64,000 nucleotides of DNA from contig NZ_FQXQ01000005.1 in NCBI RefSeq assembly GCF_900130035.1, positions 1 to 64,000 of the forward strand. The letters run 5' to 3'. The notes under the pieces were generated by a model, which saw nothing but the letters and a program-made list of their open reading frames with translations, had not been told where the DNA came from and did no database searches. Positions 29,443-35,168 of the stretch are shown piece after piece (positions within the stretch are counted from its first letter, which is position 1; every line of letters starts with the position of its first letter). Both the position numbers and the translations under genes were made by a program. Source of the stretch: Wenyingzhuangia marina. Lineage in GTDB: Bacteria; Bacteroidota; Bacteroidia; Flavobacteriales; Flavobacteriaceae.

Positions 29443-29686
29443 GTCGAAATCTATTCGAGCTTGGTCATCGAGCGAAGTCGAGATGCACTATCTATACAAA
29501 TAACAAACAAGTTTTTAAAACGATAGATCTAAGAAATAAGCATGTAGTCATAGAATTGTGTAGCAGGACGGAGCGTTAAAAAAGAATCTAGTAGATTCTT
29601 TTAGCGAACGAGCCAGACGGCGGGTTGGAAGATAATAATACGTGAATTGTTACGTAGTAATTTCATAAGATTGATCTTGATTTTTT
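29443..29686. repeat. ~240-bp direct repeat, left copy (R1)
   Basis: This copy matches 30371-30612 at a constant offset of about 928 bases. The most conserved section runs from GCAGGACGGAGCG (29563) through an exact palindrome at 29580-29602 (AAAAGAATCTA, one base, TAGATTCTTTT) to CCAGACGGCGGGTTGG and on to CATAAGATTGATCTTGATTTTT. It has no reading frame. The two copies flank the tRNA-Thr gene. Confidence 0.85.
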
Positions 29687-29982: not shown

Positions 29983-30059
29983 GCCGATATAGCTCAGCTG
30001 GCTAGAGCAGCTGATTTGTAATCAGCAGGTCGTAGGTTCGAGTCCTATTATCGGCTCCA
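29983..30059 (+). tRNA. tRNA-Thr, anticodon TGT
   Basis: The 77-base sequence folds as a standard cloverleaf. The acceptor stem is GCCGATA (29983-29989) pairing with TATCGGC (30049-30055), followed by discriminator T and an encoded CCA. The anticodon arm is GCTGA-TTTGTAA-TCAGC, giving anticodon TGT for threonine ACA codons, and the T arm carries GGTTCGAGTCC. It is a single-gene transcript with its own promoter and terminator and has no integrase or duplicated 3' end nearby. Confidence 0.97.
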
Positions 30060-30370: not shown

Positions 30371-30612
30371 GTCAAAGTCTATTCGAGTTTGGTCATCGAG
30401 CGGAGTCGAGATGCACTCTCAATACCAATAACAAACAGGTTTTAAACCGATCAATCTAAGAAATAAGTTATGTAGTCATTGAATTGCGAGCAGGACGGAG
30501 CGTTAAAAAAGAATCTAGTAGATTCTTTTAGCGAACGAGCCAGACGGCGGGTTGGAAGATAATAATATGTGAATTGTTACGCAGTAATTTCATAAGATTG
30601 ATCTTGATTTTT
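30371..30612. repeat. ~240-bp direct repeat, right copy (R2)
   Basis: This is the second copy of the element at 29443-29686, with the central palindrome at 30507-30529. After the shared part ends, this copy runs into GTACTTTGTATCAAGACAAAGTAT, itself a palindrome. Its left flank (30330-30370) also matches the partial third copy downstream. There are no coding frames. Between 30089 and 31020 I see only repeats and no gene. Confidence 0.85.
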
Positions 30613-30769: not shown

Positions 30770-30853
30770 GAATTCCGGACATCGACTATCGAGCGGCTGT
30801 CACAGAGCTTATCAAAGTCTATTCGAGTTTGGTCATCGAGCGGAGTCGAGATA
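30770..30853. repeat. Partial third copy of the intergenic repeat (R3)
   Basis: This 84-base segment repeats 30330-30413 at an offset of 440 bases, from GAATTCCG through GAGCGGCTGTCACAGAGCTT to CATCGAGCGGAGTCGAGAT. It matches only the left part of R2 plus the first few dozen bases shared with R1, and lacks the GCAGGACGGAGCG palindrome section, so the repeat family is modular. Confidence 0.85.
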
Positions 30854-31020: not shown

Positions 31021-31051
31021 TTTGTCAATGTAGATTTAATTTTTACATTTG
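31021..31051 (+). promoter_or_regulatory. Predicted promoter of the aromatic amino acid operon
   Basis: TTTG at 31021-31024 and TACATTTG at 31044-31051 are spaced by exactly 19 bases, a full consensus match. Transcription should start near 31057, about 14 bases before the leader peptide. Confidence 0.8.
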
Positions 31052-31070
31052 CCCTATTATATTACAAGTC

Positions 31071-31145
31071 ATGAAATTATTTAACACTAACGGATTTTAT
31101 TATTTTTTCTTCTTTATGGGGGAAAAGAGACTTTTCGTGTGTTAA
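31071..31145 (+). CDS. Phe/Tyr-rich leader peptide of the pheA operon (24 residues)
   Basis: This short frame begins with ATG 20 bases after the predicted promoter -7 element and ends with TAA at 31143-31145. Residues 9-15 are seven consecutive aromatic codons, FYYFFFF (31095-31115), and Phe also occurs at 4 and 22, so 9 of 24 residues are Phe or Tyr. It precedes an intrinsic terminator and the genes for phenylalanine and tyrosine synthesis. This is the layout of ribosome-mediated attenuation: scarce Phe-tRNA or Tyr-tRNA stalls the ribosome in the aromatic run. The peptide itself should have no other function. Confidence 0.85.
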   Translation: MKLFNTNGFYYFFFFMGEKRLFVC

Positions 31146-31199
31146 TTTTATATAAAACTGCATAACTAGAAGTCTCGATTTATCGAGACTTTTTTTTTT
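31127..31199 (+). promoter_or_regulatory. Transcription attenuator: antiterminator and terminator
   Basis: The terminator is a 9-bp stem (AAGTCTCGA at 31170-31178 with TCGAGACTT at 31183-31191) with a TTTA loop, running into nine T residues to 31199. The antiterminator alternative is GAGACTT at 31127-31133, inside the leader frame just after the aromatic codons, which is complementary to AAGTCTC (31170-31176), the left arm of the terminator; a G-U and a U-A pair can extend it to 9 bp. A weak earlier pairing, TCTTT (31111-31115) with AAAGA (31124-31128), could free the terminator when the ribosome does not stall. pheA starts 15 bases after the T run. Confidence 0.8.
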
Positions 31200-31213: not shown

Positions 31214-32029
31214 ATGAAAATAGCAATTCAAGGAATAAAAGGGTCATTTCATCACATAGTAGCCGAGAACTATTTTGGAGAAAACATTGAGTTAATAGAA
31301 TGTATGACCTTTGGAGAAATGCCAAACCTTCTGTTAAATGGAACCGCAGATTTTTTAGTCATGGCTATTGAAAACTCTATCGCTGGAGCAATCATTCCTA
31401 ATTACACCTTGATTGATGAAAATGATTTGGCAATTGTAGGGGAATATTATTTGGGAATTCATCAAAATTTAATGAGTTTACCAGGTCAAAAAATAGAAGA
31501 AATTAAAAAGGTGTATTCTCACCCGATGGCATTATTGCAGTGTAGAAGTTTTTTTAAAGATTATCCACACATCAAGTTGATTGAAGATACAGATACAGCA
31601 GAGGTAGCTAGAAGAATTCAAGAGAATCAATTAAAAAAAGTGGGAGCTATAGCGAGTGATAAAGCGGCAGAAATATATGAATTAGAAATGGTTGCAGAGC
31701 AAATTCAAACCATCAAAAACAATTATACAAGGTTTGTGATTTTACAAAGGCAAGAATCATTAAACAATCCAGAAGTAACCAAAGCTTCTTTAAAATTTGT
31801 ATTAAAAGATGAAAGTGGTTCTTTAGGAGAGGTATTGATGTTGTTGGCAAATCACAAAGTCAATTTATCTAAAATACAATCTTTACCTATCATAGAAACG
31901 CCTTGGGAATATGCATTTTTTGCAGATTTGGTTTTTGAGGATTACCAAGAGTACAAAAATGCATTGGTGGACATTAGAGGGAAAGTATCGAGTTTAAAAA
32001 TATTAGGAGAATACAAAAACAACAAGTAA
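31214..32029 (+). CDS. pheA: Prephenate dehydratase
   Basis: This enzyme converts prephenate to phenylpyruvate in phenylalanine synthesis. It is a 271-residue monofunctional form: a periplasmic-binding-protein-like catalytic domain (1-175) with the conserved Thr172-Arg173-Phe174 of the active site, then a C-terminal ACT domain (about 193-268) that senses phenylalanine. The usual ESRP effector motif is replaced by QSLPIIE-type sequence, as in many Bacteroidota. It is the first structural gene after the leader-peptide attenuator. Its stop overlaps the next start by one base. Confidence 0.95.
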   Translation: MKIAIQGIKGSFHHIVAENYFGENIELIECMTFGEMPNLLLNGTADFLVMAIENSIAGAIIPNYTLIDENDLAIVGEYYLGIHQNLMSLPGQKIEEIKKVYSHPMALLQCRSFFKDYPHIKLIEDTDTAEVARRIQENQLKKVGAIASDKAAEIYELEMVAEQIQTIKNNYTRFVILQRQESLNNPEVTKASLKFVLKDESGSLGEVLMLLANHKVNLSKIQSLPIIETPWEYAFFADLVFEDYQEYKNALVDIRGKVSSLKILGEYKNNK

Positions 32030-33180
32030 TGATTGTTTCGATAGCAAATAGATTAGAGGAGGTAAAAGAATACTATTTCTCAAAAAAATTAAGAGAAGTA
32101 GCCGCTTTAAGAGCAGCAGGGAAACCAATCATTAGTTTAGGGATTGGGAGTCCAGATTTAATCCCTGATGAAAAAGTTTTACAGGCATTAAGTTCGGCAG
32201 CTAGTGAGTCTACAGCTCATGGATATCAATCTTACCAAGGATTACCAGCCTTGAGACAAGCAATGGCTTCTTTCTATCAAGAAAATTTTAAGGTAACCTT
32301 AAATCCTGATACAGAAGTGTTGCCTTTAATGGGGTCTAAAGAAGGAATCATGCACGTATCGATGGCTTTTTTAAATCCAGGAGATCAAGTATTGGTGCCA
32401 AATCCAGGATATCCAACATATACTTCAGTAACAAAGTTGGTGGGGGCAGAACCTGTTTTTTATGATTTAGTAGAAGACAATGAGTGGTTGCCAAATTTTG
32501 AGGCTTTAGAAAAATTAGAGGTATCTAAGGTAAAAATCATGTGGATCAATTATCCACACATGCCAACTGGAGCAATAGCGAAGAATCAGGTATATCAAAA
32601 GTTAATCGAGTTTGCTAAAAAACATGAAATATTATTGGTAAATGACAATCCATATAGTTTTGTGTTGAATGAAAATCCTGAAAGTATTTTAAACTTTGAA
32701 GGAGCCAAAGAAGTAGCTTTAGAGCTGAATTCTTTGAGTAAAAGTTTTAACATGGCAGGTTGGAGAGTTGGAATGTTTGTAGGGGCTCAAGAATATTTAG
32801 ATCAAATATTAAAAGTAAAAAGCAATATGGACTCTGGAATGTTCTATGGAATTCAAAAAGGAGCTATTGAAGCTTTACACTTGTCAAAAGACTGGTTTAA
32901 AAGCATCAATGAACATTATCACAGACGTAGACAAATTGTTTATCAAATATTAGATAGCTTAAATTGTGTGTATGATACCACACATGTTGGAATGTTTGTA
33001 TGGGCAAAATTACCAGAAGGAATCACATCAGAACAAATGACAGATAAAATGTTATATGAAAAAGATGTATTTATTACACCAGGAACCGTTTTTGGTTCTA
33101 ACGGAGAGGGATATATAAGATTATCTTTATGTGTTTCCGAAGAAAATTTACAACAAGTTTTAGTTAGGGTTAAGGCATAG
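32029..33180 (+). CDS. Pyridoxal-phosphate aminotransferase, aromatic type
   Basis: This 383-residue class I/II aminotransferase has the PLP-binding lysine at residue 238 in SLSKSFNMAGWR, the Asn-Pro loop INYPHMPTGA, and the C-terminal Arg in YIRLSLC. The N-terminal half carries the GIGSPDL and YQSYQGLPALR patterns of fold type I. Lying between pheA and tyrA, it probably transaminates phenylpyruvate and 4-hydroxyphenylpyruvate, or prephenate. The exact substrate is inferred from the operon. Its start overlaps the pheA stop (TAATG). Confidence 0.88.
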   Translation: MIVSIANRLEEVKEYYFSKKLREVAALRAAGKPIISLGIGSPDLIPDEKVLQALSSAASESTAHGYQSYQGLPALRQAMASFYQENFKVTLNPDTEVLPLMGSKEGIMHVSMAFLNPGDQVLVPNPGYPTYTSVTKLVGAEPVFYDLVEDNEWLPNFEALEKLEVSKVKIMWINYPHMPTGAIAKNQVYQKLIEFAKKHEILLVNDNPYSFVLNENPESILNFEGAKEVALELNSLSKSFNMAGWRVGMFVGAQEYLDQILKVKSNMDSGMFYGIQKGAIEALHLSKDWFKSINEHYHRRRQIVYQILDSLNCVYDTTHVGMFVWAKLPEGITSEQMTDKMLYEKDVFITPGTVFGSNGEGYIRLSLCVSEENLQQVLVRVKA

Positions 33181-33218: not shown

Positions 33219-34067
33219 ATGTTAGTAACAGTCATAGGGTTAGGGTTAATAGGAGGTTCTTTAGCATTAGAATTAAAGAAACGTTTAGGCTATTCCATCC
33301 ACGGAATCGATGCGAATGAGACGAATGCCCAAAAAGCATTAGACCTTGGTATTGTTGATAAAATAGTAGATTTCCCTCAAATTACTGATAGTGATGTTGT
33401 TGTGTTGGCTGTGCCGGTAAATTTTTTACCAGATTTAGCAATAAAAGTACTAGATGTAGTTAAAAAAGACGCCATTGTCTTTGATATGGGCTCTACCAAA
33501 GAGAAACTGAGCAAAACAGTTGAAAATCACGAAAAAAGGAGTAATTTTGTGGCCGTTCATCCAATAGCGGGTACAGAACATTCTGGACCAGAGGCTGCTA
33601 TTTATAATTTGTTTGATGATAAAGTAAATATCATCTGTGATAAAGAGTTAAGTAGTAAGGAGGCCGTAGATAAAGTGTTACACATTTTTAACACTTTAAA
33701 CATGAGAACTATTTTTATGAATAGTGCAGAACACGACAAGCACATTGCTTACGTTTCTCACTTATCACATATTAGTTCTTTTATGTTAGGGAAAACGGTA
33801 TTGGAGAAGGAAAAGAACGAGAAGAATATTTTTGACATGGCGGGTTCTGGTTTTGAATCTACCGTTCGTTTGGCAAAAAGTTCTCCAAACATGTGGACTC
33901 CTATTTTTATAGAAAACAAGGAGAATATTTTAAGTTCATTAAATGAGTATATAGATAATTTAACTGCATTTAAGAATTTAATCTTAGAAGAAAATAAAGA
34001 AGGGTTACAACAAACAATGTTGGAAACCAATCATATAAAAGAAGTATTAACAGGAATTCAAAAATAA
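33219..34067 (+). CDS. tyrA: Prephenate dehydrogenase
   Basis: TyrA oxidatively decarboxylates prephenate to 4-hydroxyphenylpyruvate for tyrosine synthesis. The NAD(P)-binding GLGLIGGS motif is at residues 7-14, the conserved HPIAGTEHSGP near 113-123, and the catalytic histidine region HDKHIAYVSHLSH near 179-191. At 282 residues it is a single-domain form without fused chorismate mutase, which in this operon is supplied by the next gene. It lies 38 bases after the aminotransferase and 18 before the DAHP synthase fusion. Confidence 0.94.
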   Translation: MLVTVIGLGLIGGSLALELKKRLGYSIHGIDANETNAQKALDLGIVDKIVDFPQITDSDVVVLAVPVNFLPDLAIKVLDVVKKDAIVFDMGSTKEKLSKTVENHEKRSNFVAVHPIAGTEHSGPEAAIYNLFDDKVNIICDKELSSKEAVDKVLHIFNTLNMRTIFMNSAEHDKHIAYVSHLSHISSFMLGKTVLEKEKNEKNIFDMAGSGFESTVRLAKSSPNMWTPIFIENKENILSSLNEYIDNLTAFKNLILEENKEGLQQTMLETNHIKEVLTGIQK

Positions 34068-34085
34068 AAGTATATAATTACTAAG

Positions 34086-35168
34086 ATGGAAAACAAAAAA
34101 GAATTAAGAACGTGGTTGGATGACATGAAATTAGATCATCCTCTAGTAATTGCTGGACCTTGTAGTGCAGAAACAGAAGAGCAAGTATTAAAAATTGCTC
34201 ACGAATTAAAAGACACAGATGTAACTGTATTTAGAGCAGGTGTTTGGAAACCAAGAACTAGACCAGGAGGATTTGAAGGAGTTGGTGCTGTAGCATTACC
34301 TTGGTTAAAGAAAGTAAAAGAACAAACAGGATTGTTAACTGCTGTTGAGGTTGCTAATGTAGCTCACGTAAAATTAGCTTTAGAAGCTGATGTTGATATC
34401 TTATGGTTAGGTGCTCGTACTACAGTAAACCCATTTGCTGTTCAAGAAGTAGCAGATGCTTTAGAAGGTACTGATAAAATTATTTTGATTAAAAACCCAA
34501 TCAATCCAGATTTAGCTTTATGGTTAGGTGGTGTTGAACGTTTGTACAAAGCAAATATTAAAAATTTAGGAGTTATTCACAGAGGATTCTCTTCTTATAA
34601 GAAAACTCGTTACAGAAACGTTCCTCAATGGCAATTGCCAATTGAATTGAAACGTCAATTCCCAGATTTACCAATCATCAACGATCCATCTCACATTTGT
34701 GGAAACAGAACTGGAATCCAAGAAATTTCTCAAATCGCTTTAGATTTAAACTTCGAAGGATTGATGATTGAAACTCATATTACTCCAGATGATGCTTGGT
34801 CTGATGCTGCACAGCAAATTACTCCTGCTCGTTTGGTAGAGATTATGAACGATTTAAAAGTTCGTAAGCCTAAAGCAGAAGGAGAAACTTTAGATCAATT
34901 ACAACAGTTAAGAGCTGAGATTGATGTGATAGATAACCACATCATTGATACTTTAGCTGAGCGTATGAAAGTTGCCGTTCAAATAGGTGAAGTTAAAAAA
35001 TCTAAAAACATTTCTGTTTTACAAGATGCTCGTTGGGGAGAAATTTTACAAAACATGGTTGCTGTTGGAGAAAAATCTGGTTTAAGCCAAGATTTTATCG
35101 AATCTGTTTTTAAAGCAATTCACCAAGAGTCTATTAACAAACAAGAAGAAATTGTTACTTCTAAGTAA
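34086..35168 (+). CDS. Bifunctional 3-deoxy-7-phosphoheptulonate synthase / chorismate mutase
   Basis: The first two-thirds (residues 1-260) are a type-I-beta DAHP synthase, with IAGPCSAE at 22-29, KPRTRPGGFEG and NDPSHICGNR, which commits carbon to the shikimate pathway. The last third (about 268-355) is an AroQ-type chorismate mutase with LRAEIDVIDNHII and VQIGEVKK motifs, making prephenate for pheA and tyrA. The 360-residue fusion is normal in Bacteroidota. It is the last gene before a strong terminator, so the operon holds the first pathway step plus the branch to Phe and Tyr, under one attenuator. Codon use is noticeably richer in optimal codons, fitting high expression. Confidence 0.95.
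   Translation: MENKKELRTWLDDMKLDHPLVIAGPCSAETEEQVLKIAHELKDTDVTVFRAGVWKPRTRPGGFEGVGAVALPWLKKVKEQTGLLTAVEVANVAHVKLALEADVDILWLGARTTVNPFAVQEVADALEGTDKIILIKNPINPDLALWLGGVERLYKANIKNLGVIHRGFSSYKKTRYRNVPQWQLPIELKRQFPDLPIINDPSHICGNRTGIQEISQIALDLNFEGLMIETHITPDDAWSDAAQQITPARLVEIMNDLKVRKPKAEGETLDQLQQLRAEIDVIDNHIIDTLAERMKVAVQIGEVKKSKNISVLQDARWGEILQNMVAVGEKSGLSQDFIESVFKAIHQESINKQEEIVTSK

Follow-up and report, generated by a model that had tools for sequence, protein, structure and literature searches.

The window, that is, the whole 64,000-nt stretch of Wenyingzhuangia marina DNA analysed here, contains a Phe/Tyr operon of four genes on the forward strand: pheA, encoding prephenate dehydratase with an ACT domain (31214–32029; Pfam PF00800 and PF01842), a class I/II aminotransferase gene (32029–33180; PF00155), tyrA, encoding prephenate dehydrogenase (33219–34067; PF02153 and PF20463), and a gene for DAHP synthase fused to chorismate mutase (34086–35168; PF00793 and PF01817). 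The Pfam matches uphold all four identities in the gene order claimed by an earlier note on this DNA. DAHP synthase catalyses the first step of the aromatic pathway, and the inclusion of this step in the operon, also claimed earlier, recurs in relatives: the fused gene lies downstream of pheA in 84 of the 88 loci of sufficient length, 79 with the full four-gene order and 5 with pheA and the fused gene only. The nearest named pheA locus is that of Wenyingzhuangia gilva (95% protein identity).

Upstream of pheA, and likewise on the forward strand, lies a putative promoter (31021–31051) consisting of TTTG (31021–31024), a 19-nt spacer and TACATTTG (31044–31051). It matches what we take to be the Bacteroidota promoter consensus, in agreement with the promoter proposed earlier for this position. 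In the longer spacer ahead of the leader, TCGAGCGGAGTCGAGA occurs three times, once with a mismatch (29468–29483, 30396–30411 and 30836–30851; none in 100 shuffles), and is perhaps a short interspersed repeat.

The promoter is followed by a leader ORF of 24 codons plus TAA (MKLFNTNGFYYFFFFMGEKRLFVC; 31071–31145), within which seven aromatic codons in a row, Phe Tyr Tyr Phe Phe Phe Phe, form a candidate sensing run (31095–31115). Both the ORF and the FYYFFFF run lie where the earlier note had read them. Downstream, a terminator hairpin is formed by a 5′ arm (31168–31178) and a 3′ arm (31183–31193), the latter leading into ten T (31190–31199; together 31183–31199). The terminator and T run described earlier are thus present, and the stem comprises 11 pairs, not the 9 given before. 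GAGACTT (31127–31133), within the leader ORF, is complementary to AAGTCTC (31170–31176) inside the terminator 5′ arm, exactly at the positions and with the pairing reported. These two segments constitute the 5′ and 3′ arms of a putative antiterminator. A pairing of GACTT with an upstream AAGTC (31066–31070) was also considered and dropped, since neither L001 nor L012 retains AAGTC.

Conservation and joint variation of the leader

Conservation of the aromatic codons and of the pairing in relatives had been set beforehand as a check on this arrangement, and an aromatic-run leader, a terminator and an antiterminator duplex were found together in 136 of 147 pheA loci. These loci comprise 10 from named genomes, 30 and a further 60 from the family, and 27 and a further 20 from a search across the phylum; pheA was matched in 268 of 299 family genomes and in 215 of 247 genomes in the phylum search. 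Since they were chosen by similarity to the query, the 147 are not a random sample; they include the window itself (L011) and two identical pairs in which the same genome appears twice (L005/L014 and L097/L109). The 136 leaders encode 127 distinct peptides. Among 22 loci belonging to other families of the class, which we infer to be Bacteroidia, 16 had the complete set, and the comparison would place the device in Flavobacteriaceae and five other families of that class. A −7-like motif, TANNTT[TA]G, lies 8–60 nt ahead of the leader ATG in 109 of the 136 loci (shuffled mean 13.7, maximum 25).

Eleven loci lacked the full set. In eight of them the ORF or the terminator was missing (L009, L010, L060, L093, L123, L125, L126 and L145), and in L108, L133 and L142 both were present but not adjacent. 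L009 and L010 are labelled Helicobacter cetorum and Acidobacteria, outside Bacteroidota. The PheA protein of L009 (NZ_FZMR01000001.1) is 58% identical to flavobacterial PheA and its gene carries neither leader nor terminator, pointing either to transfer or to a mislabelled contig. Some of the 136 positive loci are weak, such as L127, with a duplex score of 9 and an arm 29 nt away.

The sensing run is T-rich in an AT-rich genome, which counts against an attenuator: a T-rich tract is readily read as Phe codons, and the hairpin could be a plain terminator or insulator with the aromatic ORF a by-product and no switching. Single parts do arise by chance: among 627 background stretches of the window, 13 had a qualifying ORF and 40 a terminator. 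A terminator-like hairpin was found in 141 of the 147 pheA upstream regions. Against a plain terminator, a strict rule requiring an ORF in which 5 or more of 8 residues are aromatic, a terminator and an antiterminator duplex score of at least 14 was satisfied by 127 of the 147 pheA upstream regions and by none of the 627 window stretches; it was also satisfied by 3 of the 1182 stretches taken from other loci, and these 1182 include a few real leaders of the same kind. Furthermore, C is nearly confined to third codon positions of the run (4, 12 and 370 at positions 1, 2 and 3 in the 136 leaders), which suggests a reading frame and not a plain pyrimidine tract, in a comparison that is partly circular because the run was picked by aromatic density. 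Together with the joint changes of the two arms described below, these observations make a plain terminator very unlikely. A covariance model of the leader had the pheA site as its sole match in the genome at E values up to 0.05. Matches were obtained in 66 of the 80 family genomes searched, a few being weak and away from pheA; of the weak extra matches, L183, L184, L186, L187, L188 and L191 look like chance terminator matches and were set aside.

In the segment separating run and terminator, the best duplex score with the terminator left arm averaged 17.6, compared with 6.8 in shuffled spacers, and reached at least 14 in 91% of loci versus 6.5% of shuffles. Between lineages the arms vary jointly, as in GAGAC/GTCTC, GGGAC/GTCCC, CCGGGACT/AGTCCCGG, AGGATT/AATCCT, AGGCGGGA/TCCCGCCT and GAGAACTTC/GGAGTTCTC. 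Among 99 aligned leaders, 86.7% of the cells in the seven antiterminator pairs were paired, compared with a mean of 80.7% and a maximum of 82.7% when whole segments were swapped, and 62 cells showed double changes (mean 22, maximum 37 in 500 swaps). Pair 86:161 was G-C in 38 leaders, A-U in 53, G-U in 7 and another combination in 1. In the MAFFT alignment GAGAC and GGGAC were offset by one column, and the antiterminator counts were made with our own script, not the pair-counting tool, after the gap in column 85 had been shifted by hand. Other measures were less distinctive: any double change was seen in 6 of the 7 antiterminator pairs, a number inside the swap range (mean 4.4, maximum 7), the antiterminator slid by −2 columns still yielded 41 double-change cells, and the outermost pair was broken in 39 of the 99 leaders. 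Because kinship inflates such pair counts, the diversity of the arms across families is the better argument. Of the cells in the eight terminator pairs of the same 99 leaders, 95.9% were paired and 68 showed double changes, where swaps yielded at most 15.

The T run ends 14 nt ahead of the pheA start codon, a proximity that would suit translational control, in which leader translation changes access to that start. The hairpin is nevertheless backed by ten T, and columns 191–196 of the aligned leaders are each T in at least 94 of 99. In addition, the hairpin starts at least 75 nt before the gene in 47 of 136 loci (46 nt in the window), so it stands in no fixed relation to the start codon. We consider control of translation initiation the most improbable of the alternatives.

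Codon-to-arm spacing and the codon hairpin

Measured from the first nucleotide of the final aromatic codon, the antiterminator arm begins 14 nt downstream in the window; the distance is 12–15 nt in 110 and 10–17 nt in 132 of the 136 loci. Among 427 shuffled spacers forming any duplex, 8% gave a spacing of 12–15 nt. A ribosome with a codon in its A site should have its leading edge about 12–13 nt further on, given a footprint size assumed for Bacteroidota, and this puts the last sensing codon approximately where a stall would just leave the arm free. Under an assumed footprint of −18 to +13 for a ribosome at the stop codon, the arm lay wholly inside in only 113 of the 136 loci.

The last aromatic codons can also fold with the purine tract behind them into a candidate pause hairpin (31103–31128), which ends at the antiterminator arm. 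Across the 136 loci, the 3′ end of this codon hairpin fell within −1 to +1 nt of the arm start in 117, and its folding energy was moderately better than that of shuffles (mean z −1.8 for dinucleotide shuffles and −1.1 for spacer shuffles). In 119 distinct loci, a pyrimidine-G step was located 13 nt behind the hairpin in 50%, nearly always with a G ten bases earlier, and such steps were also frequent at +9 (42%) and +1 (66%). Any step at +10 to +13 was present in 92 of the 119, compared with a shuffled mean of 43. The pattern is like that of a pause site, although common descent may account for it. The stretch behind the arm (31134–31145 in the window; TGTATGTATAA-like in many relatives) is itself unusually conserved, either as a pause site or through shared ancestry.

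The leader is predicted to share with that of E. coli trp a stall at cognate codons, and resembles it in mutually exclusive 2:3 and 3:4 helices and in a candidate hairpin of the codon region. In E. coli trp, the 1:2 hairpin sequesters strand 2. We looked for such a mutually exclusive protector helix here and rejected it, as the codon hairpin ends at the arm and leaves it uncovered. We tentatively infer a pause hairpin and no protector helix. The codon hairpin adjoins the arm and can coexist with the antiterminator, and an untranslated leader is consequently predicted to read through.

In the mechanism we propose, RNA polymerase would initiate near 31057 and the leader would be translated. If Phe-tRNA or Tyr-tRNA were short, the ribosome would stall within codons 9–15 with its leading edge just before 31127; GAGACTT would then be free to pair with 31170–31176, the terminator would be blocked and the operon transcribed. 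With both tRNAs plentiful, the ribosome would reach the stop codon at 31143 and cover GAGACTT, the hairpin at 31168–31193 would form and transcription would stop at the T run. Comparison of the relatives shows the leader, both alternative helices with two-sided changes, the codon-to-arm distance and the match between codons and products; leader translation, ribosome stalling, a polymerase pause at the codon hairpin and a change in readthrough are predicted steps. The attenuation proposed in the earlier note thus draws support from conservation, from helix covariation and from a spacing suited to a stalled ribosome. Judging from these comparisons, we assign a probability of roughly 0.9 to the locus being a ribosome-mediated transcription attenuator that matches aromatic amino acid synthesis to the availability of charged tRNA-Phe and tRNA-Tyr.

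Leader codons and the downstream genes

Phe and Tyr codons were both present in the run of all 136 pheA leaders, which fits the earlier suggestion that one switch reads both end products. Trp codons also occurred in 74 of these leaders, Trp-Trp in none. Of the 299 family genomes, 31 gave no pheA match, and 20 of these were taken further. None of the 20 had tyrA over the cut-off, and trpC was found in 11. Six were left out: G062, because its DAHP contig opens with a frame that looks by eye like the final part of a tyrA; G116, because the contig stops at the gene; and G057, G079, G136 and G161, for lack of a full-length match to DAHP synthase/chorismate mutase. Eight genomes with trpC and six without remained.

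A Trp-Trp leader and a terminator preceded a lone DAHP synthase/chorismate mutase gene in six of the eight trpC-positive genomes (G073, G078, G074, G027, G054 and G033; loci L225–L230), all from different genera. G101, also trpC-positive, had a single Trp codon and a terminator before DAHP synthase, and G042, which keeps trpC and DAHP synthase, had neither leader nor terminator there. In the six trpC-negative genomes (G055, G098, G041, G053, G022 and G089), no terminator-like hairpin was found within 300 nt, and two had a short ORF with one Trp ahead of DAHP synthase. The arms of the Trp-Trp leaders again vary jointly (CGGGATT/AGTCCCG, TGGGATT/AGTCCCA and GAGGGATT/AGTCCCTT). Their Trp codons lie 25–35 nt before the arm, compared with 12–15 nt at pheA, a distance that also leaves the arm free. 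The reading of Trp-Trp at DAHP synthase in these six pheA-less genomes is a further point against a plain terminator with a fortuitous T-rich ORF.

Similar leaders were associated with other genes. The phenylalanine hydroxylase gene of G042 (PF00351, 148.7 bits) is preceded by the leader MKNLNNTYYYYPILTRRIGQ and a terminator, with a weak antiterminator, and that of G089 by the Tyr-rich leader MKTNRIYTIYMYTFYHRWRAR and a terminator; one phenylalanine hydroxylase leader reads Tyr-Tyr-Tyr-Tyr. A Tyr leader with terminator was found in only 2 of 30 phenylalanine hydroxylase loci (L245 and L246), both with short hydroxylase-like genes in genomes without a pheA match. In W. marina itself, hisG (L158, G000:C4) follows a His leader, MNSVKLHHHHIQYCA, and trpE (L174, G000:C1) a Trp leader ending in MKLDRKNTWWWYTLN, each with a hairpin and T run identified by eye. 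A His-rich ORF lay upstream of hisG in 15 of 15 loci, and no clear leader was found in this genus upstream of ilvD (12 loci) or homoserine dehydrogenase (16 loci). In the sequences compared, leader codons track the product of the downstream genes.

Two further loci were recorded alongside these. Upstream of ilvD in another family of the order, L195 has an Ile/Leu-rich ORF, MRVNNVILSIIILLCQL, ahead of a terminator-like hairpin and may be a branched-chain leader. L185 (G003:C4:25570–25687, minus strand) combines a Met/Cys-rich leader, MNKNLNIMCRCMMCINYAGDTIV, with a terminator ahead of a gene that by eye resembles O-acetylhomoserine sulfhydrylase, and is a possible methionine or cysteine attenuator.

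Alternative helices by themselves are silent on what decides between them, and a ligand or protein, not the ribosome, might control the same pairings, through an aromatic riboswitch, a T-box or an RNA-binding protein; the sequence kept behind the arm in many relatives could be read in this light. On the other hand, no T-box, other riboswitch or further Rfam family reached its gathering score in the leader region, a tRNA at 29983–30056 being the only feature to do so in the whole window, and the leader RNA is short, at about 140 nt. Moreover, Phe/Tyr, Trp, Tyr or His leader codons go with the downstream gene. We therefore regard control by a ligand or protein as highly improbable.

Returning to ribosome-mediated attenuation, the leaders can be joined in a broader account, to which we give a little under even odds. 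The device would be an old Bacteroidia attenuator with a fixed ruler, the arm lying about 13 nt beyond the final sensing codon, that selection has re-coded. Where pheA and tyrA were lost and Trp synthesis kept, the codons before DAHP synthase would have changed from Phe/Tyr to Trp-Trp; a hydroxylase making Tyr from Phe could carry a Tyr leader; and where aromatic synthesis is absent, leader and terminator would have vanished. With no protector helix, an untranslated leader would leave the operon switched on, opposite to what happens in E. coli trp.

Related systems and biological meaning

Most described cases of amino-acid attenuation come from Proteobacteria, Actinobacteria and some Firmicutes. 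The enterobacterial pheA attenuator (RF01859) combines a Phe-rich leader, a terminator and an antiterminator in the control of prephenate dehydratase, an architecture shared by the present locus. The latter differs in its mixed Phe/Tyr, often Trp, run and in a four-gene operon that includes tyrA and DAHP synthase. Phe_leader RF01859 is also the nearest Rfam family, at 23.7 bits and so well below its gathering cut-off of 55.

According to the available part of a 2010 survey, no leader-peptide system had been shown outside Proteobacteria or Actinobacteria before its own Firmicutes case (PMC2965389). Bacteroides sORFs have been described as reminiscent of leader peptides (PMC7366714). The Corynebacterium ilvB uORF (uORFC-75-1) likewise has product-cognate codons, a terminator and a complementary antiterminator and differs in phylum, genes and codons; the available text, on uORF attenuators in Corynebacterium, mentions neither Bacteroidetes nor pheA (PMC11109978). 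Closest is a 2021 study of Flavobacterium psychrophilum, which presents strong clues that amino acid operons are attenuated through leader peptides and singles out a conserved 5′ element ahead of pheA that is present in other genera of Flavobacteriaceae (PMC9723704). This element has gene, position and family in common with the present leader. The available text does not explicitly call it one of the attenuators and is silent on leader sequence, codon run, antiterminator, covariation and any distribution beyond the family (PMC9723704). In view of that paper, the kind of device was already known and had been flagged at the family level. Judged by title or abstract, none of the open-licence papers found describes the codon content, covariation, spacing, wider spread or re-coding reported here.

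For W. marina, the putative attenuator sits at a Phe/Tyr operon that includes the first step of the aromatic pathway, in a genome that also has trp and his leaders. The codon-to-arm spacing offers a quantitative prediction of the ribosome leading edge in this group of bacteria and supplies a simple search rule for further leaders of this type. A natural test of the mechanism is provided by the Trp-Trp and Tyr leaders, in which codon identity follows the pathway that remains, and such re-coding, if true, would be of wider interest.
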